This document shows positions 8,641 through 24,412 of a stretch of DNA of 46,120 bases, piece by piece (position 1 is the first letter of the stretch; every line of letters starts with the position of its first letter). The position numbers were made by a program, and so were the translations under genes. Location of the stretch: NCBI GenBank assembly GCA_027063065.1, contig JAMOSO010000031.1, positions 1 to 46,120 on the forward strand, written 5' to 3'. The stretch comes from Planctomycetota bacterium. Its GTDB lineage: Bacteria > Planctomycetota > JAMOSO01. The notes below the pieces were generated by a model. The model saw nothing but the letters and a program-made list of their open reading frames with translations, ran no database searches and was not told the origin of the DNA.

Positions 8641-9642
8641 TTACAAGTTGTTTTTAATCCATTTAACCGTGCGTTTAAGCCCTTCTTCGGTAGAGATTGT
8701 TACATTATAACCTAAATCTTGTTTGGCCATTGTTATATCAAAAAAATGGCTTTTAGATAATTGTAAAGCAATAAACCTGCTCATTGGAGGTTCTTTTTGT
8801 TTGTTAAAAAGTTTATAAATCCATTCAATTAACGCCCCAACAATGTATGCAGTTTTAAAACCTATTTTTGATTTTATGCTAGGTATATCCGATTGCTTAA
8901 ATAGGTTATCAATCCAATCCCATAAATTTACCGGTTCACCTTGTGAAATAAAATATGCTTTACCTGCGCCAGACAAGCTAGTTTGCAAATTTTGCCAAGC
9001 TAAAATATGAGCATCGGCAGCGTTATCGACATATATTATATCTACTAGATTTTGACCATTGCCAACTTTTTTTAACTGTTTAGCTTTACCTTTGGCAACT
9101 AATCTAGGAATTAAATTTGTATCTTCTGGTCCCCAAATAAGATGTGGGCGTAAAGCGATGGTGTGTAATGTGTTAGAATTGGCATTAATTATTAATTGTT
9201 CAGCTTTTGCTTTAGTACTTGCATAATGGCATAAAAATTTATTTGGATATGGTAGTGTTTCGTTGCCGTTATATATATCTTTTTGATTAAAAATAACTGA
9301 TGGGGTTGATGTATATATTAAATTTTTAATACCGTATTCTTTGCAAGCATTTATTATATTTTGTGTGCCTTTAATATTGATATTGGCATAACTGTCATAA
9401 CTACCCCAAATACCCGTCTTAGATGCAACATGAAAAACAGCCTCCATTCCCTTTACCGCTTTTTTTACATCATTGTAATTTTGTAAATCTCCTATGATTT
9501 CTTCTACACCTAGTTCTTTCAGAGAGGTATAGCTATTGCGATTTAAAGAGCGTACATATATTTTTTGAGCAATTAATTTTTTGGTGATAGCTAATCCTAA
9601 AAAGCCACCAGCTCCTGTTACAAGTACTTTTTGATTTTGCAT
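8641..9642 (-). CDS. oleD: OleD-type 2-alkyl-3-oxoalkanoate reductase (NAD(P)-dependent SDR)
   Basis: OleD reduces the 2-alkyl-3-ketoacid made by OleA to the 2-alkyl-3-hydroxyacid used by OleC. The 333-residue extended SDR has the cofactor loop 'VTGAGGFLG' (8-16), the OleD/3beta-HSD-like segment 'HVASKTGIWG', the catalytic Tyr140 and Lys144 in HYASTKAKAE, and the OleD-type 'YTSTPSVIF' strand. It lies on the same strand as oleABC but is separated from them by ygiQ, a DUF4380-like gene and lysS. A hairpin lies just upstream of it. A different 3beta-HSD-like reductase remains possible, but the presence of oleA, oleB and oleC nearby makes OleD the best reading. Confidence 0.85.
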   Translation of the reverse strand: MQNQKVLVTGAGGFLGLAITKKLIAQKIYVRSLNRNSYTSLKELGVEEIIGDLQNYNDVKKAVKGMEAVFHVASKTGIWGSYDSYANINIKGTQNIINACKEYGIKNLIYTSTPSVIFNQKDIYNGNETLPYPNKFLCHYASTKAKAEQLIINANSNTLHTIALRPHLIWGPEDTNLIPRLVAKGKAKQLKKVGNGQNLVDIIYVDNAADAHILAWQNLQTSLSGAGKAYFISQGEPVNLWDWIDNLFKQSDIPSIKSKIGFKTAYIVGALIEWIYKLFNKQKEPPMSRFIALQLSKSHFFDITMAKQDLGYNVTISTEEGLKRTVKWIKNNL

Positions 9643-9653
9643 GTGTTATAAGA

Positions 9654-9685
9654 TAGCCAGGCAAATGTTTTTATTTACCTGGCTA
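9654..9685 (-). terminator. hairpin between lysS and oleD
   Basis: A 13-bp stem (arms 9654-9666 and 9673-9685, loop of 6 nt) with one position that is a G-U pair in the minus-strand RNA. It sits just after the lysS stop and 12 nt before the oleD start. No long U tract follows on the minus strand, so it may be a weak terminator or an RNA-processing hairpin rather than a full stop. Confidence 0.5.
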
Positions 9686-9691
9686 ATAAAA

Positions 9692-11500
9692 TTAACCGTC
9701 TAAACCTAGTTGTTTGATAATATTGGCAGTTTGTTGTGTACCGTCATTATCTAATGCTATACGTTGCAAATATTTTTGATTTTTAGCATCGATACTGGTA
9801 ATTTCTAATACATTATCTTGCTTATTGACATTTGTGTGGATTTTAACAGCTTTTGTTTTTTTTGCAGATGCAAATTTTATAAACTCATCCTCACTAATTA
9901 TAGATGATTTTATAAATTCTTCTCTATTTGCAGATACTTCTCTAAAGCGTGTAATTACAAAATCTTTATCTAGCACGCCAAGTAAATTTCCAGCCTTTGG
10001 CCCTGAAGAACGATTTAATAGTACACAATAAATAGCGTTAAAGGCATCATTTTGGTTGATAGGTGTTTGTCGACATAAATCAAATGCTAATGTTTGAATT
10101 TTTTCGTCTTCCCAATCATCACCAGTTAATTTTTCTAGTTCATTGGCAAATTGATTAAGAAAAAACTTTTGTGCTAGAGTTAATTGTTTGGCTTTTTCTG
10201 GCAATGATTTTTGTAAAATCATTTTCTCGTCTTCATCAGCTAGGTTTTCTACCCAAAATTTAGCAGAATCAATGCGTTGTTGTAGATGTTTTAGTTCTAA
10301 ATCTGTCAATGGCGCACCTTTGCGTTTGGCCATTTCGGCTATAGCATCTAAATGTGGTAGCTGAGCGTATGTTGTTACTAATTGAAAATTACCGTCAAAA
10401 TATGCTCCTTCTGGTTTTACTTCACATAGTTCCCACATTGCTTTAGCGTCGTTAGCTTGTGGTTTATCGCTGTAGGCAACCTGATGGGTGCGATCCATTT
10501 CATTAAAAATTTTAGTGATATTTTTTTCAGTAGGTTCAAAGTTGACAGGTCTATTTGGTAATGTTTTTAACATTAAATAACGTAATGTTTCTGGAGGCAG
10601 TAAATCTGCCATATCTCGCGCACTGACTCCAATACCTTTTGATGATGACATTTTAGCCCCACCAACCAAGAAAAATTCGTATGGGCAATTGATAGGAGGC
10701 TCTAAATTAAATAGATTTTTAAGCACTCCAGCACTGACGTCACGACTGCCACCTTTTGTGCTATGGTCTTTGCCAGCTCCTTCGATTGTTACAGGAAATT
10801 CTTTCCACTTAGCAATCCATTCTAATTTCCAAGGTAATTTACCACCACCGTTAAAGGGGCTTCGTTTTCCTTTATATCCACAGCCTGTTGCCCAGCTCAC
10901 TAGGTTTTTTTCGCAAGAATAAGTTACTTCTTTACCGTCAAAATCAGTAACTAATACAGTGCCAACCCTACCGCAGTTTTCACAGATAGCTTGAAATGGT
11001 ATCCAACTATCTGGTTTAACAGAACCACTGACATTTTTATATACTTCACGAATCATATCTGGATGGCTTAATATACGCTCTATAGCATCATTAAACTGTC
11101 CAGATCGATAAATATCACGCATATGATAGAAGGAACAATTTACGCCTAATTCTTTAAAGATATCAAAAAATTCTTTAATAAAATGATTTGCCATATCTGG
11201 AGCATCGCTACCTTTTGGGGCAGGAGTATTGCATAGTGGTACTCCTAAATATTTACTAAAGTGTTCGTCTTCACCAAAGGGTATTTCATCGACGGCATCA
11301 TAATCGTCAACACCAAAACGGTACTCCACAGGTATGCCACGTTCTTTGCATGCTCTAAAAATAGCATCATGAATTAATACCCCTCTAAGAGCACCTACAT
11401 GAACACGTCCAGAAGGTGTTTTAGAGTCATTAATAACATGAACACCACCACGGGGTTCTGTTTTGGCGGCAAGTTCAGCGATTTCTTCAGCCCAATTCAT
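9692..11500 (-). CDS. lysS: lysyl-tRNA synthetase, class I
   Basis: The enzyme charges tRNA-Lys with lysine. This is the class I (archaeal-type) enzyme, not the common bacterial class II form. The HIGH-like motif is 'RVHVGA' (32-37) and the KMSKS loop is 'KMSSSKG' (283-289). Cysteines in CENCG (about 173-177) with later Cys residues (about 196 and 207) look like a zinc site. At 602 aa it is somewhat longer than many class I LysRS, with an extended C-terminal part. The ribosome binding site GGAG lies 8 nt before the ATG. Class I LysRS occurs in archaea, alphaproteobacteria, spirochaetes and scattered other bacteria. Confidence 0.95.
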   Translation of the reverse strand: MNWAEEIAELAAKTEPRGGVHVINDSKTPSGRVHVGALRGVLIHDAIFRACKERGIPVEYRFGVDDYDAVDEIPFGEDEHFSKYLGVPLCNTPAPKGSDAPDMANHFIKEFFDIFKELGVNCSFYHMRDIYRSGQFNDAIERILSHPDMIREVYKNVSGSVKPDSWIPFQAICENCGRVGTVLVTDFDGKEVTYSCEKNLVSWATGCGYKGKRSPFNGGGKLPWKLEWIAKWKEFPVTIEGAGKDHSTKGGSRDVSAGVLKNLFNLEPPINCPYEFFLVGGAKMSSSKGIGVSARDMADLLPPETLRYLMLKTLPNRPVNFEPTEKNITKIFNEMDRTHQVAYSDKPQANDAKAMWELCEVKPEGAYFDGNFQLVTTYAQLPHLDAIAEMAKRKGAPLTDLELKHLQQRIDSAKFWVENLADEDEKMILQKSLPEKAKQLTLAQKFFLNQFANELEKLTGDDWEDEKIQTLAFDLCRQTPINQNDAFNAIYCVLLNRSSGPKAGNLLGVLDKDFVITRFREVSANREEFIKSSIISEDEFIKFASAKKTKAVKIHTNVNKQDNVLEITSIDAKNQKYLQRIALDNDGTQQTANIIKQLGLDG

Positions 11501-11604
11501 GGGTTATCTCCATATAGTATAATAATTTAAGTAAATAGTTTATTGTATAAAGTCAAAAAAAGGTTGCAACTTCTTTTGGTTTTAAATCAGGTTAATAATT
11601 TGTA

Positions 11605-12498
11605 TTAATCAAATAAAGCTTTAGCTGCTTTTCCAGTTGATTCACAAAGGCAATTATTTTTTATAATCCATATTTCTACATGATGCGATATCTGAGCTGG
11701 TTTTAGACAAGTTTCACTGCCCATTGTTTCCATTTCAACCATGAAATTATCAGGACCTATATATGCTGCGACATTTGTGCTTAAAGGATATTTTTCTAAG
11801 CTTGAAAACTCTCTTTTTTTACCAAAACATATATTGCGATTTTTATCATTCATAACAATAATTCCAGCTGCACTTTGAACCATTCGTTTGTTTTCTTTGC
11901 CGTTAGGTTTGATTACCATAGCGTCTTCTTCAATCAGAAATTGATCGTCTTTAAAATGTTTTTGACCGTGTCCAGCCCATTCTTTAAAAAGTACAATAGT
12001 TGCTGTATCAAAACTACTATTGTCTCCTAGTGGAATAATATATTCAGTGTTATCACTGGGTATTGTACAAGTAAGCGCCCATGGGACTACGCCAAAAAGC
12101 AAATCACTATCGTTAATAGTAAAGCTGTCAACTTCTAAGCGATTTTCATTAGTTACGGTTACTTTTATGCCACGTCTTATTTTATTTGTCGATTCAGGCG
12201 CTCCAGTTAAAATAAAACCATTAGATAATATTTCGCAAGTGGCTGGATTATTATCCGTGTTATATGTCATTTCGCATTCATCAGCATTAATACCTGCGTG
12301 CCAACACCTATGACCACCGCGTAAATCCCAATCACCTCTAGTATATTTTTGAGGTTCCCATAAAAGTATGTTTTCACCATCGATAGTTTTTAAAGAACTA
12401 ATACGAGGCCCGTAAGAATATACGCCTATGATGTGTAATTTATTTGTAGTGATTTCAACAGCGTCTAAACCATTCCATGTTATTTTTTGTATATTCAT
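11605..12498 (-). CDS. DUF4380-like protein with probable galactose-mutarotase-like fold
   Basis: A 297-residue soluble protein with no signal peptide. The N-terminal 'EITTNKLHIIGVYSYGPRISSLKTI' region and the later 'RGDWDLRGGHRCWHAG' and 'PWALTC' segments recall DUF4380/aldose-1-epimerase-like beta-sandwich proteins that bind sugars. The function is unknown. It is flanked by 186 bp upstream and 104 bp downstream, so it is probably its own transcription unit. Nothing ties it to the lipid genes except direction. Confidence 0.6.
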   Translation of the reverse strand: MNIQKITWNGLDAVEITTNKLHIIGVYSYGPRISSLKTIDGENILLWEPQKYTRGDWDLRGGHRCWHAGINADECEMTYNTDNNPATCEILSNGFILTGAPESTNKIRRGIKVTVTNENRLEVDSFTINDSDLLFGVVPWALTCTIPSDNTEYIIPLGDNSSFDTATIVLFKEWAGHGQKHFKDDQFLIEEDAMVIKPNGKENKRMVQSAAGIIVMNDKNRNICFGKKREFSSLEKYPLSTNVAAYIGPDNFMVEMETMGSETCLKPAQISHHVEIWIIKNNCLCESTGKAAKALFD

Positions 12499-12684
12499 AA
12501 TATTCCATTATTATCAAAAGCGCATGTTAAAGTAATATGCTAGTTAAAAAATCAGATGTGATTATATTTATAGATATTAGTTTTGTTGATGTATATTAAT
12601 ATATTTATTTTATATATTAATATAGTATAAGTATTTTACCTTGTTTATAAAATTAAAAGTGATGAAGTCTATGGTAGAAATTAT
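12499..12684. other. short AT-rich spacer
   Basis: The 186 bp between ygiQ and the DUF4380-like gene are very AT-rich, including repeated TATTAATAT-type tracts at about 12585-12625. No ORF or strong hairpin is visible. It probably holds the promoter of the downstream gene, and may mark the end of the lipid operon. Confidence 0.4.
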
Positions 12685-14388
12685 TTAATGTTTTCTTTTT
12701 ATATTGGCTTTACCTACTACGATTGCCTTTTGTTTTTCTTTTTTTCTAAAATCTTTTTCTACAAATATTTTTTTGCCAGTAAATGGGTTGATTTCTGTAT
12801 AATACATTAATGTAGAGTATGTAGAAGGGGTAGGCGTAAATATCTGTACTTGTTCAGGAGATAAATTTAAATGCGAACTGGTATATTTTTTTAAATTACG
12901 CATTTCTGTTTCATTACAACCTGGATGCGCTGCTATCATATAATAGGTTAAAAACTGTTTTTTACCTATTTTCTTATTAATTGTATTAAATGAATTTACA
13001 AAATCTAATAATGAATTTTTATCAGGTTTACCCATTAATTTTAATACATTATCTTCTGAGTGTTCTGGAGCAATTTTTAATTGACCTGAAGTATGATATT
13101 GCACAATCTCTTCTAAAAAACGTTGACCATATTTTTTGTCATCAGCTACTAAATCATAGCGTATACCAGACGCAACAAAAACTTTTTTGATTGCTTTTAA
13201 CTGACGTATTTTTCTTAAGAGTTTCAATTGTGGTAAATGATTTACTTTTAGACTTTTGCAAGTTATCGGCTCAGTACATCGTTTATCTTCGCAAGTTCCA
13301 TATTGTATTTTTTTTTGACATTCATAATCATACATGTTGGCTGTGGGTCCACCAATATCATGTATATAGCCTTTAAAGCCTTTAGTTTTAGTTAGTTTTT
13401 TGGCTTCATTGATAATTGATTGCTCTGAGCGACTTTGAATAGTTTTACCTTGATGTACTGTAATGGCGCAAAAATTGCATTCTCCATAACAGCCTCTATG
13501 GGTTAAAATCGAAAATTTTATCGTGTCTATAGCTTTAACATAGCCAAGTTTTTTATAATATGGGTGAGTATCTAATTCAAATTCTAAATCAGATATTTTA
13601 TCCATCTCTTTTTTGTTTAGATGCAATGCGGGAGGGTTTTGGATAAGATAGCGACTGTCTTGTTTTTGTGCTAATCCAAGAGCTGTTAGCGGATCCATAT
13701 TATGATAAAAATTATCAAACATTTCTATAAAATCATATTTATTTGCAATACATTTTTCATAGCTATTGATTTCTAAATAATCTGTGGGTATTTTACGACT
13801 TAAATAGCATATACCTCGCACTTTTGTAGCATCTAAGTTTTGTTTTAAGGCATGGCTTAATTCTATAATGCTAGTTTCACCCATTCCGTAAACTAAATAA
13901 TCGGCTTGGGCATCTATTAAAATTGAACGTCTAAGTTTATTATTCCAGTAATCATAATGAACTACTCGGCGCAGACTAGCTTCAATACCTCCTAGTACTA
14001 CGCAAGAGTCTTTGCCAGCCTTGCGTTTGATTAATGTAGAATAAACTATTACGGCTCTATCGGGACGCCGATTGTTTATTCCTCCAGGTGTATAATCGTC
14101 TTTATTGCGACGTTTTTTTGTGGCAGTGTAATTGCTAACCATGGAGTCTACCGAACCACCGCTTACTCCCCAAAATAAAGTAGGTGTTCCAAGTCTTAAG
14201 ATATCATCATTGTCAATATTAGGTTGTGCTATGATGCCAACCTTGTAACCTGCTTTTAATAATAATTTACCTATGACGGCAATACCTATAAATGGCGAAT
14301 CTATATAAGCATCACCTGTAATTAAAATAATATCAAGTTTAGTCCAGTTAAGTTTGGACATTTCTGTTTTGGTGGTTGGCAAAAACAT
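12685..14388 (-). CDS. ygiQ: YgiQ-family radical SAM protein
   Basis: A 567-residue member of the YgiQ (UPF0313) radical SAM family. The N-terminal ~280 residues are the conserved YgiQ region ('GDAYIDSPFIGIAVIG', 'GVSGGSVDSMVSNYTATKK'). The iron-sulfur motif CxxxCxxC is at Cys300, Cys304 and Cys307, followed by a TIM-barrel region with 'IAPEHSEDNVLKLMGKP'. The reaction is unknown for the family. It begins directly after the oleC stop with no spacer, so it is read from the same mRNA as oleC, and a role in making or modifying the lipid product should be considered. YgiQ is also widely distributed outside such loci, so the link could be chance. No ribosome binding site is seen for 14388 or the in-frame ATG at 14361. 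Confidence 0.9.
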   Translation of the reverse strand: MFLPTTKTEMSKLNWTKLDIILITGDAYIDSPFIGIAVIGKLLLKAGYKVGIIAQPNIDNDDILRLGTPTLFWGVSGGSVDSMVSNYTATKKRRNKDDYTPGGINNRRPDRAVIVYSTLIKRKAGKDSCVVLGGIEASLRRVVHYDYWNNKLRRSILIDAQADYLVYGMGETSIIELSHALKQNLDATKVRGICYLSRKIPTDYLEINSYEKCIANKYDFIEMFDNFYHNMDPLTALGLAQKQDSRYLIQNPPALHLNKKEMDKISDLEFELDTHPYYKKLGYVKAIDTIKFSILTHRGCYGECNFCAITVHQGKTIQSRSEQSIINEAKKLTKTKGFKGYIHDIGGPTANMYDYECQKKIQYGTCEDKRCTEPITCKSLKVNHLPQLKLLRKIRQLKAIKKVFVASGIRYDLVADDKKYGQRFLEEIVQYHTSGQLKIAPEHSEDNVLKLMGKPDKNSLLDFVNSFNTINKKIGKKQFLTYYMIAAHPGCNETEMRNLKKYTSSHLNLSPEQVQIFTPTPSTYSTLMYYTEINPFTGKKIFVEKDFRKKEKQKAIVVGKANIKRKH

Positions 14389-16005
14389 TTAAGATAGTTC
14401 TTGTTCAGCCCATATTTTTAGTTTTTCTCTAAAAATTTTGGCATTATGGCGGATATCAACAGGAAAATTAGGATGTATTAAAAAGTGTTTAATGTCTTTG
14501 GTAAGAGGGTGGCATTTGGCTAAATTTGCGATTTCTTTTAATAGGCTTTCGCCATCTATCTGATTATTGATAGGTTCTACAATTAATGCAGGTTCTTGGT
14601 TATGAGTGTCTCCAATGCCAACTAAAGCTGTGCGTTTAACTGATTTGTGAGTATTAATAGGTGCTTCACACGGAATGGTATACATAATTTTATTTTTAGT
14701 TATAACTCTGTGAGCTTTACGTCCACAAAACCAAAGACGTCCCTGAGTATCTTTATAACCCATATCACCTATGCGATGCCATAATTTTGCCCCGTCTTTA
14801 ATTTTGGCTTTTTTTGTTTCTTGTGGATTGTTGTAATAAGCAGGCGTAACCATATCACCTTTGATAACGATTTCGCCTATTTCCCCAGTTGGTAAAATTA
14901 AATTATCATCCCAGTATGCAATATTATTCTCAGTTGCTTTTATTATTTCAATGCGTACATTTGGCAGAGCTTTGCCTACACATGTTCCAGACCCTTGACA
15001 GGTTTTTTGCCATGTTTCATCGGTTATTTCTTTGCCTTCAATCGAAGCAGATGGTAGTGATTCTGTAGCTCCGTATGGTGTATGAATTTGTGCATCTTTA
15101 GGTATTATTTTTTGTACTCGTGTTATTAACTCTCCAGATATGGGTGCGCCAGCCATTAATATCAGTCGTATGGAGTCTAAAACGATATTGTTCTCTATAC
15201 AGTAATTTGATATCACATCCCAGATTGCAGGCGAGCCAAAGCTGTATGTAACGCGGCGGTTTTTTATGCTAGTAATAAATTTTACTGGATCAACCTGTGC
15301 TGGTTTAGCCGCATCCATATCAGGTATGACAGCCGATGCTCCCAAAGCAATGGCAAATAAGCCAAATAAAGGGAAACCTGGTTGATCAATATCATCAGAT
15401 GTTATTTTGTAAAAATTTTTAATAAAATCCAATTGTGTATTAAATACTCTATGGGGGTATTCAACGCCTTTAGGTGGGCCTGTACTGCCTGTTGTAAAGA
15501 CAATGGCGGCTAAGTCATTTTGTGCCACGGCACAATCGTTAAAGATGTGTATATCGCTTGTTATTTTGGTTATATCATTGCCAAAAAAACCTAATGAATT
15601 ACCTACGCATAAAGATGTTGTTACAGTTTTAAAAGTTTTAGGGCAAGTTAGTTTAAATAGATGAGCTAGTGGGATTCCAATAAAACCTTGCGGTTTTACA
15701 TGAGCAATACATTTGCGTAAATTTTTAAACCCCATACCAGGATCGATTAAAATTGCGGTAGCCCCAATGCGAAATAATGCAAATGAAATAGCCATAAAAT
15801 CAAACCCTGGTTTAATCATTAGCATAATGCGATCTAGTTTTTTAATGCCGTTTGCAGTTAATATATGACTATAGTTATTAACTGCATCATTTAATTGTTT
15901 AAATGTGTAAGATTTATAAAGACCTTTTTGATATGTTACAACAGCTTCTGCAAAAGGATTGTTATTAGCTAAATGGCTAAGTCTGGATGCAATGTTGACC
16001 TTCAT
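14389..16005 (-). CDS. oleC: OleC, beta-lactone synthetase (AMP-dependent synthetase superfamily)
   Basis: OleC adenylates the 2-alkyl-3-hydroxyacid and closes it to a cis-beta-lactone. The 538-residue protein has the adenylation loop 'FTTGSTGPPKGV' (170-181), the 'YGATESLP' motif (311-318), and 'GDMGYKDTQGRLWFCGR' near the C-terminal domain. It also has segments I associate with OleC rather than ordinary acyl-CoA ligases: 'LIDPGMG' (86-92) and 'FPLFGLFAIALGASAVIPDM' (211-230). It begins 3 nt after oleB and ends where ygiQ starts. A fatty-acyl ligase is the alternative, but the context favours OleC strongly. Confidence 0.92.
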   Translation of the reverse strand: MKVNIASRLSHLANNNPFAEAVVTYQKGLYKSYTFKQLNDAVNNYSHILTANGIKKLDRIMLMIKPGFDFMAISFALFRIGATAILIDPGMGFKNLRKCIAHVKPQGFIGIPLAHLFKLTCPKTFKTVTTSLCVGNSLGFFGNDITKITSDIHIFNDCAVAQNDLAAIVFTTGSTGPPKGVEYPHRVFNTQLDFIKNFYKITSDDIDQPGFPLFGLFAIALGASAVIPDMDAAKPAQVDPVKFITSIKNRRVTYSFGSPAIWDVISNYCIENNIVLDSIRLILMAGAPISGELITRVQKIIPKDAQIHTPYGATESLPSASIEGKEITDETWQKTCQGSGTCVGKALPNVRIEIIKATENNIAYWDDNLILPTGEIGEIVIKGDMVTPAYYNNPQETKKAKIKDGAKLWHRIGDMGYKDTQGRLWFCGRKAHRVITKNKIMYTIPCEAPINTHKSVKRTALVGIGDTHNQEPALIVEPINNQIDGESLLKEIANLAKCHPLTKDIKHFLIHPNFPVDIRHNAKIFREKLKIWAEQELS

Positions 16006-16008
16006 AAT

Positions 16009-16884
16009 TTAGTGATTTATATCTGTAATAAATTGATTAATTAAAGGATAAATTTCTTCGCCGACATCTTCCATTAAATAATGCCCTGCATTTTCAAAGT
16101 AATAATTAGGAGCGTCTGGAAATCTTTTTATCCATGTTTCATAAAACGAATCATTAAAACAAAAATCTTTTCCTCCCCAAATGATTTGTTTTGGCATAGT
16201 TGATAATGTAAATTTTTTGTCTATTTCTTGCATTAATTTGTACGAATAATCATCGGGGTGTAAAGGTATGTCGGCAACAAACTGATATGTAGCTATGCGA
16301 CTTTGCCAATTATAATATGGGGCAATAAATTCTTTAGATATATCATTAGGTAACGGATTTACAACGGCCATTTTAGTTGCACCTGCGGCAAAAGCATTAA
16401 ATTGGCGTATTAAAATTTCACCAATTATAGGAAGACGACAAGCGTTAATGCTCACAGGAATACGCGAAGATAAAAAAGCAGAGGTATTCATTGCAGTATA
16501 GCTCTTAACCTTTTCTGGATATTTGATACTTATGCCAGCGCCTATTGCTCCGCCCCAATCGTGCACGACAAGGTTAAATGACTTTAAATTTAGACGTTTA
16601 ATTAAAATTTCAATGTTGGCTATATGTGTTTCTAAATGATATTTATAATCTTGTGGTTTATCAGAGTTACCACATCCAATGTGATCAGGTGCAATACATC
16701 TAAACTTATCTTTTAAATTTAAAATTAAATTTCTGTATAAATAACTCCAACTTGGGTTACCGTGCAACATTAAAACTACGGGTTTATCGTGATTACCTTC
16801 GTCTATATAGGCTAAGTTATGCCCGTCTATATTTAAATGATTTGGTATAAACGGATAATTTTTTGTATTTTCTAATATAGTCAT
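16009..16884 (-). CDS. oleB: OleB, alpha/beta hydrolase (beta-lactone decarboxylase)
   Basis: OleB removes CO2 from the beta-lactone to give the cis-olefin. The protein is a haloalkane-dehalogenase-like hydrolase with 'HGNPSWSYLYRNLI', the nucleophile Asp in 'VVHDWGGAIG', an acidic residue in 'WGGKDFCFND' and the catalytic His in 'FENAGHYLMED' (Asp119, Asp250 and His278 when numbered from the upstream ATG at 16914). I place the start at the ATG at 16884, which overlaps the oleA stop as ATGA. The upstream ATG at 16914 adds ten residues that do not look like family sequence. The tight overlap implies coupled translation with OleA. Confidence 0.9.
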   Translation of the reverse strand: MTILENTKNYPFIPNHLNIDGHNLAYIDEGNHDKPVVLMLHGNPSWSYLYRNLILNLKDKFRCIAPDHIGCGNSDKPQDYKYHLETHIANIEILIKRLNLKSFNLVVHDWGGAIGAGISIKYPEKVKSYTAMNTSAFLSSRIPVSINACRLPIIGEILIRQFNAFAAGATKMAVVNPLPNDISKEFIAPYYNWQSRIATYQFVADIPLHPDDYSYKLMQEIDKKFTLSTMPKQIIWGGKDFCFNDSFYETWIKRFPDAPNYYFENAGHYLMEDVGEEIYPLINQFITDINH

Positions 16885-17918
16885 CGAGGATATTCCATAG
16901 CTAACATTAAACAATTTATGCCACTACCAATACCAAGCATAGCAGCTTTGTCACCCTTTTCAAAATAGCCTTGTTCAATTGCCATTGCAGTGCCAAGAGG
17001 GGCAGCTACACTGCCAGTGTTGCCCATAACTTCAACTGTTGGAAAATTTAACTTAGGGTTGATGCCTAATGTTTCAAATAATAATTTGCTGTGCGCTATG
17101 CCAACTTGATGAGTAAAAAAACGATTAGGTGTTTTGGGATTCCATTGTAAGTTTTGCAAAAATAATGGCCATGTATTTGCTGCTGTTTCAATGCCACGTT
17201 TAAGTAATTCTTCAGAATCTGTTTGCATTAAAGTGCCATTGTTACCATCGGCACCTTGACATAAATTATTGTGTTTTGTATTGGTATTTAATGCTCCGCC
17301 AATTAGTTTTATGCCTTTGGGGTTTAAAGAGCTATGTTGCATTACAACTGCAATAGAGCCAGATCCAATAGTTAAAGATGCAAAATGACCTTTAATTGAT
17401 TTACGAGTTAACTCAGTGTCATTTAAAATATTGGTGATGGTAGAATTAATTAAATTTTCGGCAGTTTCACCTGCTACCACTAAACCTGTTTTTATTTGTC
17501 CAGTCTCAATCATATTGGCAGTCATAACCATAGCGTTTAAAAAACCTAAGCAAGCATTGGATAGATCAAAGGCATGACAAGTAGCTGGTAAATGTAGCCC
17601 AGAATGTACAAATGATGCTGTGGCAGGTTCCATCATATCTCTTGAGACAGAGCTAAAAATCAAACTTTCTATTTGTTCTGGCTTGACCTTGGCGTTTTCC
17701 ATAGCTTTGGTACCAGCTAAAATTGCAGCTTCACTTGGTTTTGTGCCAGCGTTCCACAGGCGTCTCTCCTTAATGCCAGACATTAATTCTAAGCGACCTT
17801 CGGGTAATTTAAGTTTCTTGTACACAGCGGATAATTTTTTTTCTATAGATGCAGAGCTTAAAATATTTGGTGGCAGTACATAGCCAAACTCAGTAATAGT
17901 TGTATTGATAAATTTCAT
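16881..17918 (-). CDS. oleA: OleA, acyl head-to-head condensing thiolase
   Basis: OleA joins two fatty acyl thioesters by non-decarboxylative Claisen condensation to a 2-alkyl-3-ketoacid. The 345-residue thiolase-fold protein has the nucleophile Cys123 in 'LSNACLGF', His270 in 'THQVG', Asn300 in 'GNTGS' and a Glu97 in 'MMEPATAS' that matches the glutamate OleA uses as base; FabH lacks this glutamate. Together with oleB, oleC and oleD this is firm. It starts immediately after the FabI-like stop (TAA then ATG) and ends inside oleB. Whether it takes acyl-CoA or acyl chains from the locus ACP cannot be read from sequence. Confidence 0.92.
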   Translation of the reverse strand: MKFINTTITEFGYVLPPNILSSASIEKKLSAVYKKLKLPEGRLELMSGIKERRLWNAGTKPSEAAILAGTKAMENAKVKPEQIESLIFSSVSRDMMEPATASFVHSGLHLPATCHAFDLSNACLGFLNAMVMTANMIETGQIKTGLVVAGETAENLINSTITNILNDTELTRKSIKGHFASLTIGSGSIAVVMQHSSLNPKGIKLIGGALNTNTKHNNLCQGADGNNGTLMQTDSEELLKRGIETAANTWPLFLQNLQWNPKTPNRFFTHQVGIAHSKLLFETLGINPKLNFPTVEVMGNTGSVAAPLGTAMAIEQGYFEKGDKAAMLGIGSGINCLMLAMEYPR

Positions 17919-18722
17919 TTATGAATTTACTTTTTTGATAATATTGGCGTCAAAATAATTAATACTCATACCGGCATCGACAGTTATTGTTTGTGCTACT
18001 ATACCAGATGAACGTGGCGATAGTAAAAATATTGCTGTATTTGCAGCCTCTTTGGTGGTGATAGCTTTTTGACGAGGGATTATTTTTTCAGCATACATAT
18101 AACTGTCGATATATCCTGGTATGCCCGCACTGGCGGATGTTTTTAGTAAACTTGGGCAAACGGCGTTAAATCTAACATTAGAAAATTTAGAAAAACTTTT
18201 ATTTAAAAAGGCTAATGAGCTTTCCAAAGCAGCTTTAACAGGTGCCATATAACCGTAGTTTTCTGATGCCATACGAGTAGTAGAAATTGAAATAGTGATG
18301 ACAGACGCATTGTTTTCAAGTTGTTCTTTAAAAGCGTTTGCTAAAGCAATTAAAGAAAATGCCGAGATATTTATAGCCTGTAAAAAATCTTCTCTGATAA
18401 CTTCGTGAAAGGGCTTTAGACCTTGGCTATAGTTTGCAAATGCTAAAGAATGCACCATACCATGTATGGGTGCATTAAGGTGTTGTTTGATTTGCATAGC
18501 TACATTGTCAATCTCTGTTTGTTTTTCTACATCACAGGTAAACACAGGTATGTCAGGAAACAGTTTTTTAGAATTGGTTTTTAAATTATCATCTTTAACT
18601 ATGTTTATTAAATTTGCACCAGCATCAATGGCTTCTTTGGCGATGGCAAAAGCTACAGACTTTTTATTAGCCAAACCAAATATTAAAATATTTTTATTTT
18701 TTAATTCTAAAAAATCAGACAT
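17919..18722 (-). CDS. divergent FabI-like enoyl-ACP reductase (SDR)
   Basis: A 267-residue SDR close to FabI in layout: '[17 protein letters not shown]' at the cofactor site, 'VHSLAFAN' in the middle, catalytic-type Tyr156 and Lys163 with the FabI spacing (Y-x6-K), and 'ITVDAGMSI' at the end. FabI reduces trans-2-enoyl-ACP. The second conserved tyrosine of FabI, ten residues before Tyr156, is replaced by Ile146, and the usual YxGxxR block reads 'SISTTRMAS'. It may therefore be a specialised or altered reductase for the locus rather than housekeeping FabI. A good ribosome binding site (AAGGA) precedes the ATG. It abuts oleA. Confidence 0.85.
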
Positions 18723-18743
18723 GGTTTCCTTTTTAAGAGATTT

Positions 18744-19163
18744 TTAAGTTAGCATTACAGCAAACTCTACACTTAGAGCTAATTTCGAGTTTATACGCAT
18801 TTTGGCTTTCATAAACCATGCAGAAGATAATGTTTCTGTGTGGTTTACCTCTATTTCCACTTTATCATTGGGTAGTACTTCTTTTTTAAATTTTGCACCT
18901 AAAATACGAGTTAATACAGGTACGCCTTTAAAAGAGTTACCATTGGCTTGCATTTGTTTAGAAATCATCGCAGCGCCACTTTGAAAGCAGGCTTCACACA
19001 GGATGACTCCAGGGACTATTGGGTGCTCAGGATAGTGTCCATTAAAAAAATCCAACGTATCTGGAAATTCTGCCGATGTTTTAATATATCCTTCACGGTG
19101 TTCTAGAATATCGCTGACCCATAAAAATGGATCGCGATGGGGGATTAAATCTTTAATATCCAT
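18744..19163 (-). CDS. fabZ: FabZ-like 3-hydroxyacyl-ACP dehydratase
   Basis: A 139-residue hot-dog-fold dehydratase that would remove water from 3-hydroxyacyl-ACP to give the 2-enoyl-ACP. The N-terminal 'LIPHRDPFLWV' and the active-site His43 in 'FNGHYPEHPIVPGV' and Glu57 in 'LCEACFQ' match FabZ. It lies between fabG and the FabI-like gene (5 and 21 bp gaps) in the order reduction-dehydration-reduction, and is thus likely part of a dedicated elongation cycle. A GGAGG sequence at the end of fabG is about 12 nt upstream of its ATG. Confidence 0.9.
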   Translation of the reverse strand: MDIKDLIPHRDPFLWVSDILEHREGYIKTSAEFPDTLDFFNGHYPEHPIVPGVILCEACFQSGAAMISKQMQANGNSFKGVPVLTRILGAKFKKEVLPNDKVEIEVNHTETLSSAWFMKAKMRINSKLALSVEFAVMLT

Positions 19164-19168
19164 CGATA

Positions 19169-19906
19169 TTAAAGACCTCCGTTAATTTCGAGGGTTGTTC
19201 CAGTAATATAGCTGGCTTCTTTTGAACATAAAAATTTTACGCCATTTGCTATATCTTGTGGTTCACCAAATTTTTTGGCAGGTATTTGTTTTAGGTATTC
19301 TGCTACTAAATCTTCAGGTAAATCATCAATTAATTCTGTACCTATAAAGCCAGGCAAAACAGAATTAACTGTAATATTACGTTTAGCAACTTCTTTCGAC
19401 AAAGAACGAGCCATTGCTATTTGTCCCGCTTTTGACGCAGAGTAATTAGCTTGACCAGGCAATCCCATATATGAGGCTGGACTAGAAGTAAACACGATAC
19501 GTCCATAACGTTTTTTTGCCATACGCTTGACAGCTTGTTTGGCCATTAAAAAGCTACCTGTTAAATTGACATCAATGACGCGGTTCCACTGTTCATCTTT
19601 CATTAAAGCCATAAATGCATCTTGGCGAATACCTGCATTGCACACTATGATATCAATTTTGTCTACCAAGCTATCGACTTCTTTATAAAAATCATCCACG
19701 GCATCAGTTTTAGATACATCAAATTTTCTTATGTGCATTCTATCAGGGGCAGAGCTAGAGGCTTTCATCTCTTCAGCTACGGCATCGTTGCCCGCATAGG
19801 TTACTATGACAGTGGCACCTTCGTTTAAAAACATTTCTGAAATGGCGCGCCCAATACCTCGTGTGCCTCCAGTTACAATTGCTACTTGATTTTTAAATTG
19901 TGACAT
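19169..19906 (-). CDS. fabG: FabG-like 3-oxoacyl-ACP reductase
   Basis: A 245-residue SDR that would reduce 3-oxoacyl-ACP with NADPH. It has the cofactor loop 'VTGGTRGIGRAI' (10-21), NAG, the catalytic Ser in 'FTSSPASYMG' and the YSASK catalytic block, plus 'VNSVLPGFIGTEL'. The length is typical. The ribosome binding site AAGGA lies 6 nt before the ATG. It follows the first CrtI-like gene by 35 bp and precedes fabZ by 5 bp. Many SDRs share these motifs; the neighbours make the FabG role likely, with the locus ACP as carrier. Confidence 0.9.
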   Translation of the reverse strand: MSQFKNQVAIVTGGTRGIGRAISEMFLNEGATVIVTYAGNDAVAEEMKASSSAPDRMHIRKFDVSKTDAVDDFYKEVDSLVDKIDIIVCNAGIRQDAFMALMKDEQWNRVIDVNLTGSFLMAKQAVKRMAKKRYGRIVFTSSPASYMGLPGQANYSASKAGQIAMARSLSKEVAKRNITVNSVLPGFIGTELIDDLPEDLVAEYLKQIPAKKFGEPQDIANGVKFLCSKEASYITGTTLEINGGL

Positions 19907-19941
19907 ATATTTTCCTTTTTATTATTTTGATATATAAAAAA

Positions 19942-21375
19942 TTATTTTCTTAAATAGGCATCTGCGTCATTGCAGACAATCGCCCCGTAATTCATAGCTC
20001 CAAGCCAACCAGACATAATAATGCCTACACTGCCTACATGAAATAATCCAGCTACTTGTTTATGTAAATTGCGAGAATATTCTAAACCTTCAAATTTTGT
20101 TCCGAAGGAAGAGCCTCCTCTGTGTAAGGTATAGCGTTTAAATGTTTTTGGTGTGGCAGCCTCAATCCAATCGGATTTTTCTACAATGCCGGGTATAAAT
20201 TTTTCTAAGTCGCTGCTGGCTCTTTTAATCAGGTTTTCTTTTGCTATAGCGTAGTCATCTTTGCTTAAGTTGACCCAGTCTTCATATCGTGCATTTAAAG
20301 ATGATACAACAGCGTAGTGATTTTCGTATTTAGAATTGTCTGCACGACATTCTGGATAATATATTGAAAATGTTTGACTGGTGGTATTAAAGTCAAACAG
20401 TTCATCTGTGGTAAATGTTTCGGCTTTAGAAGTAAAAACTAAGTCGCCCAAAAATGGAAATGACTCACCTTTTTTGATGCCAAAGTAAACTTGTGAACTC
20501 GAAGAATTAACCCTGATTTTTTTTGCCTGGCAAATCCAATCTTGTTTAAAATGCTCTTTGTCAGTTAAATCAAATATGGTATTAACTAATCCAGCGTTTG
20601 ATACAACAGATTTAGCAGGGATAAATATTTGTTGGTTTTTGTATGTAACGCTTACCCCTTGCACTTTTTTATTTTCTATTTCTATTTTATCAACTTTGGT
20701 ATTAGTGCAAATTGTGCCGCCATTACGTTGTATCTCTTCTGCCATGAGGGCTATCATTTTGTCTGTACCACCTTGAAATGTATAGACACCTTTAGACATA
20801 AAATTAGAAAAAACAATACCATAAGTTAAGGCGAGATCTTCTAGAGTAGAGCCGTTGGCGTATGTTATAGGCTCTAATAAAAAACGATGGACATCGTTGC
20901 GGTTTGGAAAATATTTTTCGAATAGCTCACCAGTGGTCTGGGTGTTGTCTTCGTAATAATTCATATTAAAAATGGTTTCAAAAAAACCATCAATATTTTT
21001 GCGTGGTATTTTAAAATGATTTTCTAATAATTCGGTAAAATGTTCGCGTGTGAATGTACTTTCTAGTTGATATTGAGGATTGACAAAACGAATTCCTTTA
21101 AGTTGGACAATACGGTTTTTTATTTCTTTGTTCCAATATCTACGGCAACTTTTAATCATACCATATGGAAATCCATGTAGGCTAACATCAAAAATATGTC
21201 CATTTGGCCGTGTAAACCAAGTTGCCAGTCCGCCAAGTTGAAAATGATGTTCTAATAATAAAACTTTATGTCCTTGACGTGCCAGCATATTGGCACAAGT
21301 TAATCCGCCAAGTCCTGAACCTATGATGACAGAATCATAAGTAGATTTTAAATTTGTAAGTTTTGATATTGGCAT
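19942..21375 (-). CDS. CrtI/CrtISO-like FAD-dependent oxidoreductase 1
   Basis: A 477-residue flavoprotein of the phytoene desaturase/carotenoid isomerase/retinol saturase superfamily. The FAD loop 'VIIGSGLGGLTCANMLARQG' starts near residue 16, followed by 'LLLEHHFQLGGLATWF'. The C-terminal 'GLFHVGSVGIIMSGWLGAMNYG' closes the FAD site. There is no carotenoid synthase (crtB/crtE) in the window, and the gene sits between fatty-acid genes, so an acyl-chain substrate is more likely. The reaction could be desaturation, isomerisation or saturation. It is 124 bp downstream of its paralogue, a gap holding a possible internal promoter. Confidence 0.85.
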   Translation of the reverse strand: MPISKLTNLKSTYDSVIIGSGLGGLTCANMLARQGHKVLLLEHHFQLGGLATWFTRPNGHIFDVSLHGFPYGMIKSCRRYWNKEIKNRIVQLKGIRFVNPQYQLESTFTREHFTELLENHFKIPRKNIDGFFETIFNMNYYEDNTQTTGELFEKYFPNRNDVHRFLLEPITYANGSTLEDLALTYGIVFSNFMSKGVYTFQGGTDKMIALMAEEIQRNGGTICTNTKVDKIEIENKKVQGVSVTYKNQQIFIPAKSVVSNAGLVNTIFDLTDKEHFKQDWICQAKKIRVNSSSSQVYFGIKKGESFPFLGDLVFTSKAETFTTDELFDFNTTSQTFSIYYPECRADNSKYENHYAVVSSLNARYEDWVNLSKDDYAIAKENLIKRASSDLEKFIPGIVEKSDWIEAATPKTFKRYTLHRGGSSFGTKFEGLEYSRNLHKQVAGLFHVGSVGIIMSGWLGAMNYGAIVCNDADAYLRK

Positions 21376-21409
21376 GCAGTCTTAAGTCCAACTATATAAT
21401 AAACCTTTA

Positions 21410-21415
21410 ATTATA
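21410..21415 (-). promoter_or_regulatory. possible internal -10 box before CrtI-like gene 1
   Basis: The 124-bp gap between the two CrtI-like genes holds a TATAAT on the minus strand, about 35 nt before the downstream ATG, with only a poor -35 (TTTAAC, 16 nt upstream). It may let the downstream part of the operon be transcribed on its own. Weak evidence. Confidence 0.3.
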
Positions 21416-21499
21416 GAGGCTTGTTTTTTTTGTTAAACTTTTTTTTTTAGCAAACTGATGTGTTAAAGCGTCAGTGTTTTTAGATGAAATGAGATTTAA

Positions 21500-22864
21500 T
21501 TATAGCAACTGTTGATTGACTATAGTTAACCCGCTTAACATAGCGCCTACAATACCTAGATAACCTTGATCGGTACCTGCTATAAAACAGTTATCGTAAT
21601 TGGTTAATCCCAAGCGGTTTTTAATCGGCGAACCGTAAATAGAACCATTTTTCTTGCCAGTGTATCTTTCTACGGTTGTAGGTGTAAAACTGTCTTGAAA
21701 AAAGGCTTTGTGTGAGGGGGGGGGGATTGGGATAGCCTTTAAACTTTGCTTGGCAAGGGTGTCTTTTTGTGTTTTATACGATTGCTTATCCAGCACTTTC
21801 CAGTTTGTGTAATTTGCTAGATGAGTTATGCGTAATTGTCCTCGTTCAGGTGTATAGTTTTTAAAATTGCCAGGAAAGCAGATAACGCCAGAGTTGTAGT
21901 CTACTAATGTTTTGGGGCTAGCGTAATTAAAATGGTTAGAATTATTAAAAAATGTGATGGCAGCCTCAGTTGAGAATTTTGTATTATAGTCGTATATAAA
22001 TAGGCTTTCTACATAAGCTAAGCGCCCGCTAGTTGCGATAATTTCATCTTGATTATTTTCTTCTAAAAACTCTAAAGTATTAGGTGTTCCCGCAGTTGAT
22101 ATAATTGCATCGCAGGTAATTTCAGTGCCGTTTTCTAAACGTATGCCTAAGACTTTATTTTTATTTTTGAGTATTTTAGCTACTTTTGATTTGAATTTTA
22201 TTTCTCCACCTTGATTGGCATATCCTGATAACAATCGTTCTAGAAGCCATTTAATACCTCCAGAACATCTAAAAAAACCTTCTTTAAATAAGGCTTCAAA
22301 CATAATAGTAAATTGAGCCCAATCTAAATCATTTTCTTGGTATCCACCATAAAATTGTATGGGACAAAGTAGCATTTCAATTAAAAGTGGATCTGTTATA
22401 TATGTAGATAATATTGTACGGGCAGATATGTATTTGCTAGGGGTGAAAGCATCAAAATCATTAATTGCAGTTACTAAATTTTTAAAATTATCAATTTGTT
22501 TAGGAAATTGCTTGGCGATTTCTGATATAAACAGTTCAAAATCGTTAGAAAATTTTAACTTTGTATCTGGAAATGCAATTTCACTAAATTTGTGGGGGTA
22601 AATTTCAAATTCGTGATGTTTTATTTTTAACTGTCTTAGTAATCTTGTTAAAGGAGCAGAGCGTTGTGCTTTTGTAGCGTAATTTGTGATGGCGTGCAGG
22701 CCAGTTTCTAACAACAAACCTTTGCGAGTGTAGTAAGAATTTAACCCGCCAGCAATGCTGTGTTGTTCAACTATAAGCGTTGATTCTCCAGTGCGCGCAT
22801 GACGCAATCCAGCTGATAAGCCAGAAAGCCCAGCCCCAATTATAATAAGTTTGTAATGTTCCAC
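21500..22864 (-). CDS. CrtI/CrtISO-like FAD-dependent oxidoreductase 2 (contains C10 tract)
   Basis: A 454-residue paralogue of the flavoenzyme downstream. The N-terminal 'LIIIGAGLSGLSAGLRHARTG' is the FAD loop and the C-terminal 'GTDQGYLGIVGAMLSGLTIV' the closing FAD-binding segment. The first codon is a GTG at 22864 without a clear ribosome binding site; a hairpin lies 7 nt upstream. The coding strand holds ten C in a row at 21716-21725 (codons ~380-383, reading IPPP). A one-base slip there would remove the last ~70 residues, including the C-terminal FAD segment. As read here the frame is open. The paralogue pair without carotenoid genes points to acyl-chain chemistry. Confidence 0.85.
   Translation of the reverse strand: MEHYKLIIIGAGLSGLSAGLRHARTGESTLIVEQHSIAGGLNSYYTRKGLLLETGLHAITNYATKAQRSAPLTRLLRQLKIKHHEFEIYPHKFSEIAFPDTKLKFSNDFELFISEIAKQFPKQIDNFKNLVTAINDFDAFTPSKYISARTILSTYITDPLLIEMLLCPIQFYGGYQENDLDWAQFTIMFEALFKEGFFRCSGGIKWLLERLLSGYANQGGEIKFKSKVAKILKNKNKVLGIRLENGTEITCDAIISTAGTPNTLEFLEENNQDEIIATSGRLAYVESLFIYDYNTKFSTEAAITFFNNSNHFNYASPKTLVDYNSGVICFPGNFKNYTPERGQLRITHLANYTNWKVLDKQSYKTQKDTLAKQSLKAIPIPPPSHKAFFQDSFTPTTVERYTGKKNGSIYGSPIKNRLGLTNYDNCFIAGTDQGYLGIVGAMLSGLTIVNQQLL
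21716..21725. repeat. 10-bp G/C homopolymer inside CrtI-like gene 2
   Basis: Ten consecutive G on the plus strand (C on the coding strand) inside an otherwise AT-rich region. The next longest G/C runs I noticed in the window are 5-6. Such tracts mutate by slipped-strand mispairing in other bacteria and switch genes on and off. The tract is in frame as given. Confidence 0.9.
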
Positions 22865-22871
22865 TTTTTTG

Positions 22872-22896
22872 TGCGAGCAGGTTTAACCTGCTCGCA
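22872..22896. other. perfect inverted repeat between ACP and CrtI-like gene 2
   Basis: Two perfect 12-base arms (22872-22883 and 22885-22896) around one central base; as RNA it would form a stem of about 10 GC-rich pairs with a 5-nt loop. It fills the 38-bp gap inside the operon. No U tract follows on the minus strand, so it is more likely an mRNA-stability or partial-termination element that raises ACP relative to downstream genes, or an operator. Confidence 0.7.
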
Positions 22897-22902
22897 ATTA
22901 AT

Positions 22903-23154
22903 TTATTTATCGGCTAATAAAGGCTCTAAATAATTAACTGATTTGTTTAGAGTCTCAAAGTTGCCGTAATCTTCTTCGGGAATTTGGATTTGAAACCGTT
23001 TACGCAATTCCATCACAATGTCTAAAAAATCCATTGAATCCAACTCTATTTGGTCTCTAAGTGCTTTATCTCCGTCAATTTTTGAGAGGTCTTCCTCATC
23101 GTTAATGTCTTCGATAATTTCAAGTACTACGTCTTTAATGTCGTCGCGTGTCAT
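22903..23154 (-). CDS. acyl carrier protein of the lipid locus
   Basis: A small acidic carrier protein of 83 residues. The phosphopantetheine attachment serine is in 'ELDSMDFLDIVMELRKRF' (DSMD instead of the usual DSLD), Ser40 counted from the chosen start. I chose the ATG at 23154, which has GGAG 6 nt upstream, over the in-frame ATG at 23175, which lies inside fabF and has no ribosome binding site. It follows the KS gene by 10 bp. It is not clearly the housekeeping AcpP and probably carries the growing chain of this pathway. The holo-ACP synthase at 34103 could load it. Confidence 0.92.
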   Translation of the reverse strand: MTRDDIKDVVLEIIEDINDEEDLSKIDGDKALRDQIELDSMDFLDIVMELRKRFQIQIPEEDYGNFETLNKSVNYLEPLLADK

Positions 23155-23164
23155 TATTACTCCG

Positions 23165-24412
23165 TTACTGCTCAAATTTAGTCACAATAATTACTGAATT
23201 AATACCAACCATTCCAAAAGAATTATTTAAAATGGTTTTTACGTTTACACCTTCTTTGGGTTTGTTAACTACAAGGTTGGGGCAATCGCATTCAGGATCA
23301 ATATTATTCAGATTTATTGTTGGATGTACACAGGAATCTTCAAAAGAACCAAGGTTGCCTGCTAATTCTAATGATCCAGCCGCACCCATACAGTGACCGA
23401 TATAACCTTTTGTAGCATTTATATATGTATTTTTGCAATTTTTGAAAACTTCCCTAATTCCTCGCATCTCTTGTACGTCACCTTGCGGTGTGCCAGTGGC
23501 GTGGCAGTTGACAATGTCTATGTCTTCTGCATTTAGCCCGGCTTTTTTTAGAGCAGCTTGCATACACTCTATTTGTCTAGTTGTATTGGGCAATACAAAA
23601 TCTGTAGCATCACTATTGGTATGGTAACCAGTAATTTCACAGTAAATTTTTGCTCCGCGTTTTTTTGCATCTTCTAGGCGCTCTAAGGTATATAGACAAG
23701 CTCCTTCAGATACAACAATTCCATTGCGCTGGGTATCAAATGGTCTGGAAGCTTTGTTAGGATCTGGGTGCTTTGCTAACGCTTGTTGAGCTTTAAATCC
23801 TGCAAATATTCCAAAGCTAGATGTTGATTCGCTTACTCCTCCAGTTAATGCGACATCAACTTCACCTAACCTAAGCATTTGCAATCCGTGTATTAATGCT
23901 GTATTGCCAGCGGCACAAGCGGCTCCGATTGAATAGTGTGGGCCAGTAATACCAAGGTTTAAGGTTATTTCACCAGCGGGGCTGTTTAGGACTGTGCGTG
24001 GGTTATGATGATGTGTCCAATAGTCGACGTTGTAGTCAAATTGACTAATGTTGTAAACTTCGTTTTCAGTTTCAACATTACCGTGTTCAGTTAATCCAGT
24101 ATAAACGCCAATGCGACTTTTGTCACAGTTATTCAAATCTATATTAGCATCATTAATGGCTTCGTTTGCTGCATAAACAGCTAAACATCCAGCTCTTGTG
24201 CCACGTTTGTTTTCTTTGCGTTTGCGATATTTAGTTTCTTCAAAATTGCAAATACCTGCTGGCACTTTGCCTATATATCTATGTTCAATTTCTTGAATGT
24301 GATTGCGTCCATCAAGTAATGCTTGACGAAAATCAGTTAGATTGTTGGCGTTTGGTGCTACAAGACCAACGCCAGTTATAACGATACGTTGAGAATCAGG
24401 TAATTGTGACAT
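23165..24412 (-). CDS. FabF-like beta-ketoacyl-ACP synthase (KAS II type)
   Basis: A 415-residue condensing enzyme that would extend the acyl-ACP chain with malonyl-ACP. The Cys-His-His triad is intact: Cys166 in 'GAACAAGNTAL', His304 in 'CHATGTPQGD' and His340 in 'KGYIGHCMGAAG'. The nucleophile motif is GAACAAG rather than the GTACATS of FabF, and HATGT replaces HGTST, so it is a divergent, probably specialised, KS. There is no second KS or chain-length factor beside it, unlike aryl polyene loci. It is the first gene of the minus-strand lipid block, with a promoter in front of it. Confidence 0.92.
   Translation of the reverse strand: MSQLPDSQRIVITGVGLVAPNANNLTDFRQALLDGRNHIQEIEHRYIGKVPAGICNFEETKYRKRKENKRGTRAGCLAVYAANEAINDANIDLNNCDKSRIGVYTGLTEHGNVETENEVYNISQFDYNVDYWTHHHNPRTVLNSPAGEITLNLGITGPHYSIGAACAAGNTALIHGLQMLRLGEVDVALTGGVSESTSSFGIFAGFKAQQALAKHPDPNKASRPFDTQRNGIVVSEGACLYTLERLEDAKKRGAKIYCEITGYHTNSDATDFVLPNTTRQIECMQAALKKAGLNAEDIDIVNCHATGTPQGDVQEMRGIREVFKNCKNTYINATKGYIGHCMGAAGSLELAGNLGSFEDSCVHPTINLNNIDPECDCPNLVVNKPKEGVNVKTILNNSFGMVGINSVIIVTKFEQ

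Follow-up and report, generated by a model that had tools for sequence, protein, structure and literature searches.

A dedicated set of fatty-acid enzymes, which includes two CrtI-like flavoproteins, is joined to the oleABCD genes in the window (the whole stretch of 46,120 nucleotides analysed here, contig C31 of a 2.13 Mb genome that is ∼90% complete), and this FAS/CrtI/Ole set is a conserved unit and no accident. The best explanation, with a probability of roughly 0.7, is that the set forms a dissociated, oxygen-independent substitute for the Pfa synthase which supplies polyunsaturated acyl-ACP to OleABCD, resulting in a polyene of the C31:8 or C31:9 type. The set recurs in several bacterial phyla, seemingly in place of the giant polyunsaturated fatty acid (PUFA) synthase on which other bacteria rely for this task. 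How Pfa-free anaerobes such as Desulfotalea synthesize C31:8 and C31:9 without oxygen is a question standing since at least 2009. With acyl supply and coupling enzymes in one conserved operon, the route can be tested directly by one expression experiment. If the proposal is true, it provides a plausible biochemical role for the CrtI-like proteins beside fatty-acid genes, which would indirectly inform work on the ladderane pathway, still unsolved, and it offers a compact replacement for the Pfa megasynthases.

The genes are transcribed from the minus strand in the order KS, ACP, CrtI1, CrtI2, FabG, FabZ, FabI, OleA, OleB, OleC and YgiQ, followed by an aldose-epimerase-like ORF, lysK and OleD. 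All ORFs are at their predicted positions on this strand and profile searches bear out the family assignments; the layout and families of the original prediction stand. Intergenic gaps from KS to YgiQ range from -34 to 124 bases: KS/ACP -11 (the TTG start of ACP overlaps the end of KS), ACP-CrtI1 38, CrtI1-CrtI2 124, CrtI2-FabG 35, FabG-FabZ 5, FabZ-FabI 21, FabI-OleA 0, OleA/OleB -34, OleB-OleC 3 and OleC-YgiQ 0. The gaps had been described as mostly 0-38 bp, a description to be corrected by the 124 bp between CrtI1 and CrtI2. The overlap of OleB with OleA belongs to the listed TTG start of OleB, and the true start may be later. OleD does lie further along as claimed, with the correction that ygiQ, the epimerase-like ORF and lysK sit between OleC and OleD. 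None of these three accompanies the cluster in the 80 other loci examined (the best 80 of at least 581); given this lack of recurrence, all three are likely passengers. YgiQ was also considered as a pathway enzyme and rejected, being an ordinary YgiQ equivalog that is not conserved with the set in the 80 related loci.

Table 1. Features of the window, with positions, strand and basis of assignment.
Feature	Position	Strand	Basis
Ketosynthase (KS), FabF/KAS II-like	23165..24412	-	PF00109/PF02801; alignment to FabF structures
ACP, DSM phosphopantetheine serine	22903..23175	-	PF00550
CrtI1, CrtI/CrtISO-like FAD protein	21500..22864	-	PF01593; TIGR02730 84 bits, below cut-off
CrtI2, second CrtI/CrtISO-like FAD protein	19942..21375	-	PF01593
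FabG-like 3-oxoacyl-ACP reductase	19169..19906	-	TIGR01830 284.5 bits; YxxxK present
FabZ-like dehydratase, second copy in the genome	18744..19163	-	TIGR01750 87 bits; His/Glu present
Divergent FabI-like enoyl-ACP reductase	17919..18722	-	PF13561; Tyr/Met/Lys motif
OleA, acyl-acyl Claisen condensing thiolase	16881..17918	-	NF006720; 3row/3s21; tree
OleB-like beta-lactone decarboxylase, haloalkane-dehalogenase fold	16009..16914	-	D119/H278
OleC, beta-lactone synthetase	14389..16005	-	NF006754 over cut-off; AMP-binding loop TGSTGPPKG
YgiQ family radical SAM	12685..14388	-	TIGR03904 788 bits, over cut-off
OleD, 2-alkyl-3-oxoalkanoate reductase	8641..9642	-	NF042423, YxxxK
Permease-like protein, C-terminal heavy-metal-associated-like domain with CEGC motif	43567..44817		read from sequence
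Multihaem cytochrome, close to contig end	45073..45978		PF13447

Catalytic residues of KS, FabG, FabZ, FabI, OleA and OleB are intact by alignment or motif. OleA scores 409.6 bits with NF006720 against an NCBIfam cut-off of 285, matches the OleA structure 3row with 202 bits, and carries the thiolase residues C123, H270 and N300 with the second-site Glu E97. These OleA residues, like the OleB pair and the OleC loop (Table 1), had all been named in the original prediction and were recovered. OleB is an alpha/beta hydrolase matching related haloalkane dehalogenase models; OleC reaches 507 and 501 bits with the olefin beta-lactone synthetase models NF045785 and NF045786, below cut-off, and OleD 410 bits, under its cut-off of 580. 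The catalytic motifs of OleB, OleC and OleD are intact and their order is conserved. The OleABCD of Xanthomonas and Stenotrophomonas are homologous enzymes with the same conserved catalytic residues, but they use the general fatty-acid pool, and no dedicated KS, ACP or flavoproteins have been described for them.

The window KS retains the Cys-His-His triad (C166/H304/H340, aligned to FabF structures) and matches the Desulfocapsa KS at 72%. FabI scores ∼168 bits with FabI models, below their cut-offs, and gave no match against solved structures at E 1e-40; it is 60-65% alike to the OleA-adjacent FabI of Desulfobulbaceae. Elsewhere in the genome, contig C63 holds a separate plsX-fabD-acpP-fabF (genes named from their translations) whose FabF shares 33% identity with the window KS, and contig C3 holds a canonical FabZ with 173.8 bits for TIGR01750, twice the score of the window copy. 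The window set thus supplements housekeeping synthesis and does not replace it.

Both CrtI-like proteins belong to the CrtI/CrtISO flavoprotein superfamily, with its flavin amine-oxidase/CrtI fold and dinucleotide-binding motif, by PF01593 and structural similarity to 4rep. The AF2 model of CrtI1 (pLDDT 90.6) has gamma-carotene desaturase 4rep as its best match (Z 32.0, rmsd 3.2, 425 aligned), and that of CrtI2 (pLDDT 84.3) matches 4rep nearly as well (Z 31.9, rmsd 3.2, 433 aligned); CrtI (4dgk) and a fatty-acid double-bond isomerase (2b9w) are also among the structural matches of the two models. CrtI2 is the more strongly conserved of the pair. Carotenoid desaturase or isomerase proper was rejected for both, with a best score of 101 bits against a cut-off of 549.7, and 92 against 238 for TIGR02734. 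CrtI1 is a putative acyl-ACP double-bond isomerase or desaturase, and we infer that both flavoproteins react on acyl chains. We know of no flavoprotein of this type acting on acyl-ACP, a point against the best explanation. Pantoea CrtI has been described as an oxidase/isomerase (PMC3382138), so that isomerization, dehydrogenation or both may be possible for CrtI1 and CrtI2. Two anammox CrtI-like proteins gave no lycopene (PMC4790861), a result that also counts against it.

Scanning with an alignment of the KS gave at least 581 related loci. Desulfobulbales supply most of the best 80, followed by Opitutae, Nitrospinota, Chloroflexota and Planctomycetota. Within these best 80, ACP stands beside KS in 79, CrtI1 is present in 74 and FabG in 46. 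Four Desulfobulbaceae contigs (L124, L125, L132 and L156) show ks-acp-crtI1-crtI2-fabG-fabZ-fabI-oleA-B-C as in the window, and in three of them the order runs on to OleD, with oleD directly after oleC in L125, L132 and L156. Beyond Desulfobulbaceae the order recurs partially, in Opitutae and a DeMMO deltaproteobacterial MAG, and most of it is present in L106 and the Opitutae contig L166. Since the order is conserved in other phyla, chance adjacency is excluded.

Other arrangements also occur. In several other Desulfobulbales, oleBCD are encoded on the strand opposite to fabZ and downstream of it, past tol-pal genes, with oleA elsewhere. The stretch from fabZ to oleD in Desulfobulbales encodes Tol-Pal, FtsJ and M48 proteins, which were rejected as parts of the set. 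Neighbours of OleA in one Desulfobulbales locus and two others were considered as alternative tailoring enzymes and rejected as housekeeping or unrelated (histidine kinase, RlmKL, AMMECR1, MsbA-like transporter and antiporter subunits). The CrtI-like pair adjoins KS in Desulfocapsa, Desulfopila, Desulforhopalus and Desulfosediminicola. Among named KS-positive genomes, mostly from other phyla, OleA of the window type is present in 44 of 50, and OleC in 46 of the 52 tested. In some Nitrospinota and marine Opitutales (L221, L222, L215-L217, L219) OleA stands with OleB, OleC elsewhere in the genome. The KS of L159 and L063, one a Pseudomonadales NORP220 record and the other the same-phylum genome G017, are identical; the title or binning of the NORP220 record is probably wrong.

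Co-occurrence was examined in 392 genomes of the same phylum. KS was found in 93, CrtI2 in 94 and both in 91 (Fisher p 7e-83, which ignores shared ancestry). OleA is present in 92 of the 93 KS genomes and in 50 of the 299 without KS (p 2e-51, again ignoring shared ancestry), and KS or CrtI2 in 90 of the 91 genomes with OleA matches of at least 270 bits, the window included. In 36 of 91 genomes KS and OleA are separated by no more than 20 kb, where chance placement would give ∼0.8% per genome; in the other 55 the distance exceeds 20 kb or the two genes occupy different contigs. The original prediction would have taken oleABCD lying elsewhere in related genomes as evidence against it; linkage holds in the 36 and fails in the 55, yet the genes still almost always co-occur.

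These data bear on two alternatives. That the FAS/CrtI genes and oleABCD are mere neighbours, with OleABCD making an ordinary olefin from common fatty acids, agrees with the use of the general pool by Xanthomonas and other OleABCD (PMC6463001) and with a KS-OleA linkage that is not universal. It is nevertheless very unlikely, given an order conserved in distinct phyla, the 36 of 91 genomes linked within 20 kb, and near-perfect co-occurrence together with the exclusion of Pfa described below. It is also unlikely, if less strongly so, that the main output of the set is a membrane lipid, either a polyunsaturated fatty acid or some other polyene, of which OleA diverts only a part to hydrocarbon. 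The 55 unlinked genomes, and many Desulfobulbales in which the set is located apart from OleA, are in its favour, but OleA accompanies KS in all except one of the 93 KS genomes, and in Desulfotalea psychrophila the hydrocarbon is polyunsaturated while the listed fatty acids are saturated or monounsaturated.

Of 29 same-phylum genomes that have OleA but lack the set, 23 hold a PfaA match (TIGR02813) above cut-off. None of 32 KS-positive genomes of the phylum has such a match (Fisher p 1e-11 for these two groups), and none of 19 named KS-positive genomes does either. The window genome, at ∼90% completeness, has no TIGR02813 match over cut-off and so does not qualify as a carrier of a Pfa-type PUFA synthase. 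In many of the 23 genomes PfaA is on the oleA contig, often 10-15 kb away. One family (f46) contains both Pfa-type and set-type genomes, and the pattern is therefore not simply clade against clade. Alongside the set, G195 and G423 carry strong PfaA-like matches that stay below cut-off, and these two genomes count against the best explanation. The OleA tree separates eight sequences of Pfa-type genomes from the remaining 55 with support 100/100. Two long-branched sequences of genomes lacking the set, G003 and G005, are grouped away from these eight, a position that is unsure. Conserved order, co-occurrence and Pfa exclusion together favour the earlier suggestion that a dedicated FAS/CrtI-like set makes a special acyl chain and that OleABCD join such chains; the hydrocarbon so formed is probably polyunsaturated.

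Trees place the window KS and OleA each with Thermodesulfobacteriota (support 100/99), away from the window's own phylum, and CrtI2 and FabI of the window likewise resemble Thermodesulfobacteriota proteins more closely. From this shared resemblance of four proteins, the simplest reading would be that the set moved as a unit.

In the Pfa and OleABCD systems of Shewanella and Photobacterium, which make hentriacontanonaene, OleA is likewise fed polyunsaturated chains by a dedicated second synthase, and the pfa and ole genes are often linked (PMC6463001, PMC3098273). The original claim that OleABCD are not found with their own acyl supplier was accordingly too strong. The window differs in having no PfaA, and in place of a multidomain megasynthase holds discrete KS, ACP, FabG, FabZ and FabI with two CrtI-like flavoproteins. 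Pfa plus OleA gives a 31:8 ketone, and OleA has been proposed to accept acyl-ACP in that system (PMC6463001). D. psychrophila makes C31:8 and C31:9 hydrocarbons without Pfa; its FASII clusters contain the phytoene-desaturase-like genes DP1860, DP2405 and DP2406, as the window combines FAS and CrtI-like genes, and a novel anaerobic PUFA route was proposed (Rattray 2009, PMC2649909). A text search of that paper gave no mention of OleA. In the window, by contrast, the set and oleABCD are physically joined, and the present analysis follows the set through several phyla. Desulfocapsaceae, the family of D. psychrophila, carries the set, although D. psychrophila itself is absent from the retrieved loci; a C31:8- or C31:9-like product is expected, in line with the hydrocarbons of this Pfa-free member of the family.

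In the proposed mechanism, a dedicated type II line would build a polyunsaturated chain on its own ACP and pass it to OleABCD. KS would elongate with malonyl units, presumably transferred by the housekeeping FabD, and in each round FabG would reduce and FabZ dehydrate. FabI could then saturate the enoyl group, or the CrtI-like pair could move or retain the double bond by isomerization or dehydrogenation without oxygen, akin to the FabA-like domains of the Pfa synthase. OleA would join two chains, OleD reduce, OleC make the beta-lactone and OleB remove CO2, leaving a long polyene, e.g., C31:8 or C31:9. We infer this product, its chain length and the expression of the genes. On a broader scale, we consider it somewhat more probable than not that polyunsaturated acyl chains are made without oxygen in many bacteria by a small type II line in which two CrtI-like flavoproteins act on ACP-bound intermediates, a route that supplies OleA and is the dissociated equivalent of the Pfa synthase. 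OleABCD, the Pfa-ole linkage, the D. psychrophila polyenes with their CrtI-like FAS genes, and the proposed anaerobic PUFA route are already known. What is new, as judged from the literature searched, is a FAS/CrtI-like set that is tied physically and phyletically to OleA, exchanged with Pfa and spread over several phyla; a search mostly outside subscription journals found no paper joining CrtI-like genes to oleABCD.

In Dehalococcoidia OleA stays next to KS; G433, a complete genome, has no OleC match, so that the end product may vary there, being a ketone or something else. In three Dehalococcoidia loci (L160, L154 and L218) two OleA-KS pairs stand in tandem ahead of the CrtI pair. A conjugated polyene or polyene ketone, aryl-polyene-like and coupled head to head, is quite unlikely as the product. 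KS, ACP, FabG and FabZ alone would yield conjugated chains, conjugated carotenoids are substrates of CrtI-like proteins, and G433 has OleA without OleC; but FabI, needless for a fully conjugated chain, is kept beside OleA in the conserved order, and the sole relative with a measured product has acyclic C31:8 and C31:9 hydrocarbons.

The original prediction also allowed a cyclised hydrocarbon; such a product, or one of the ladderane type, now appears highly improbable. Anammox ladderane candidate loci (Kuenenia kuste3336 and kuste3607) do contain FabF-like, ACP and CrtI-like genes together (PMC2649909), as in the window, but theirs hold radical SAM/B12 and methyltransferase genes. The window genome has no match at E 1e-60 to the B12-binding radical SAM model TIGR04072, and membership in the ladderane clusters was rejected on this basis; YgiQ, the radical SAM protein at hand, does not recur with the set in the 80 related loci. 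Family f42, the richest in TIGR04072 matches, has neither the KS nor the CrtI2 of the set in the search of 392 genomes. TIGR04072 matches occur in 57 of these 392 genomes, 12 of them with the KS set, and so extend beyond a single family of this phylum.
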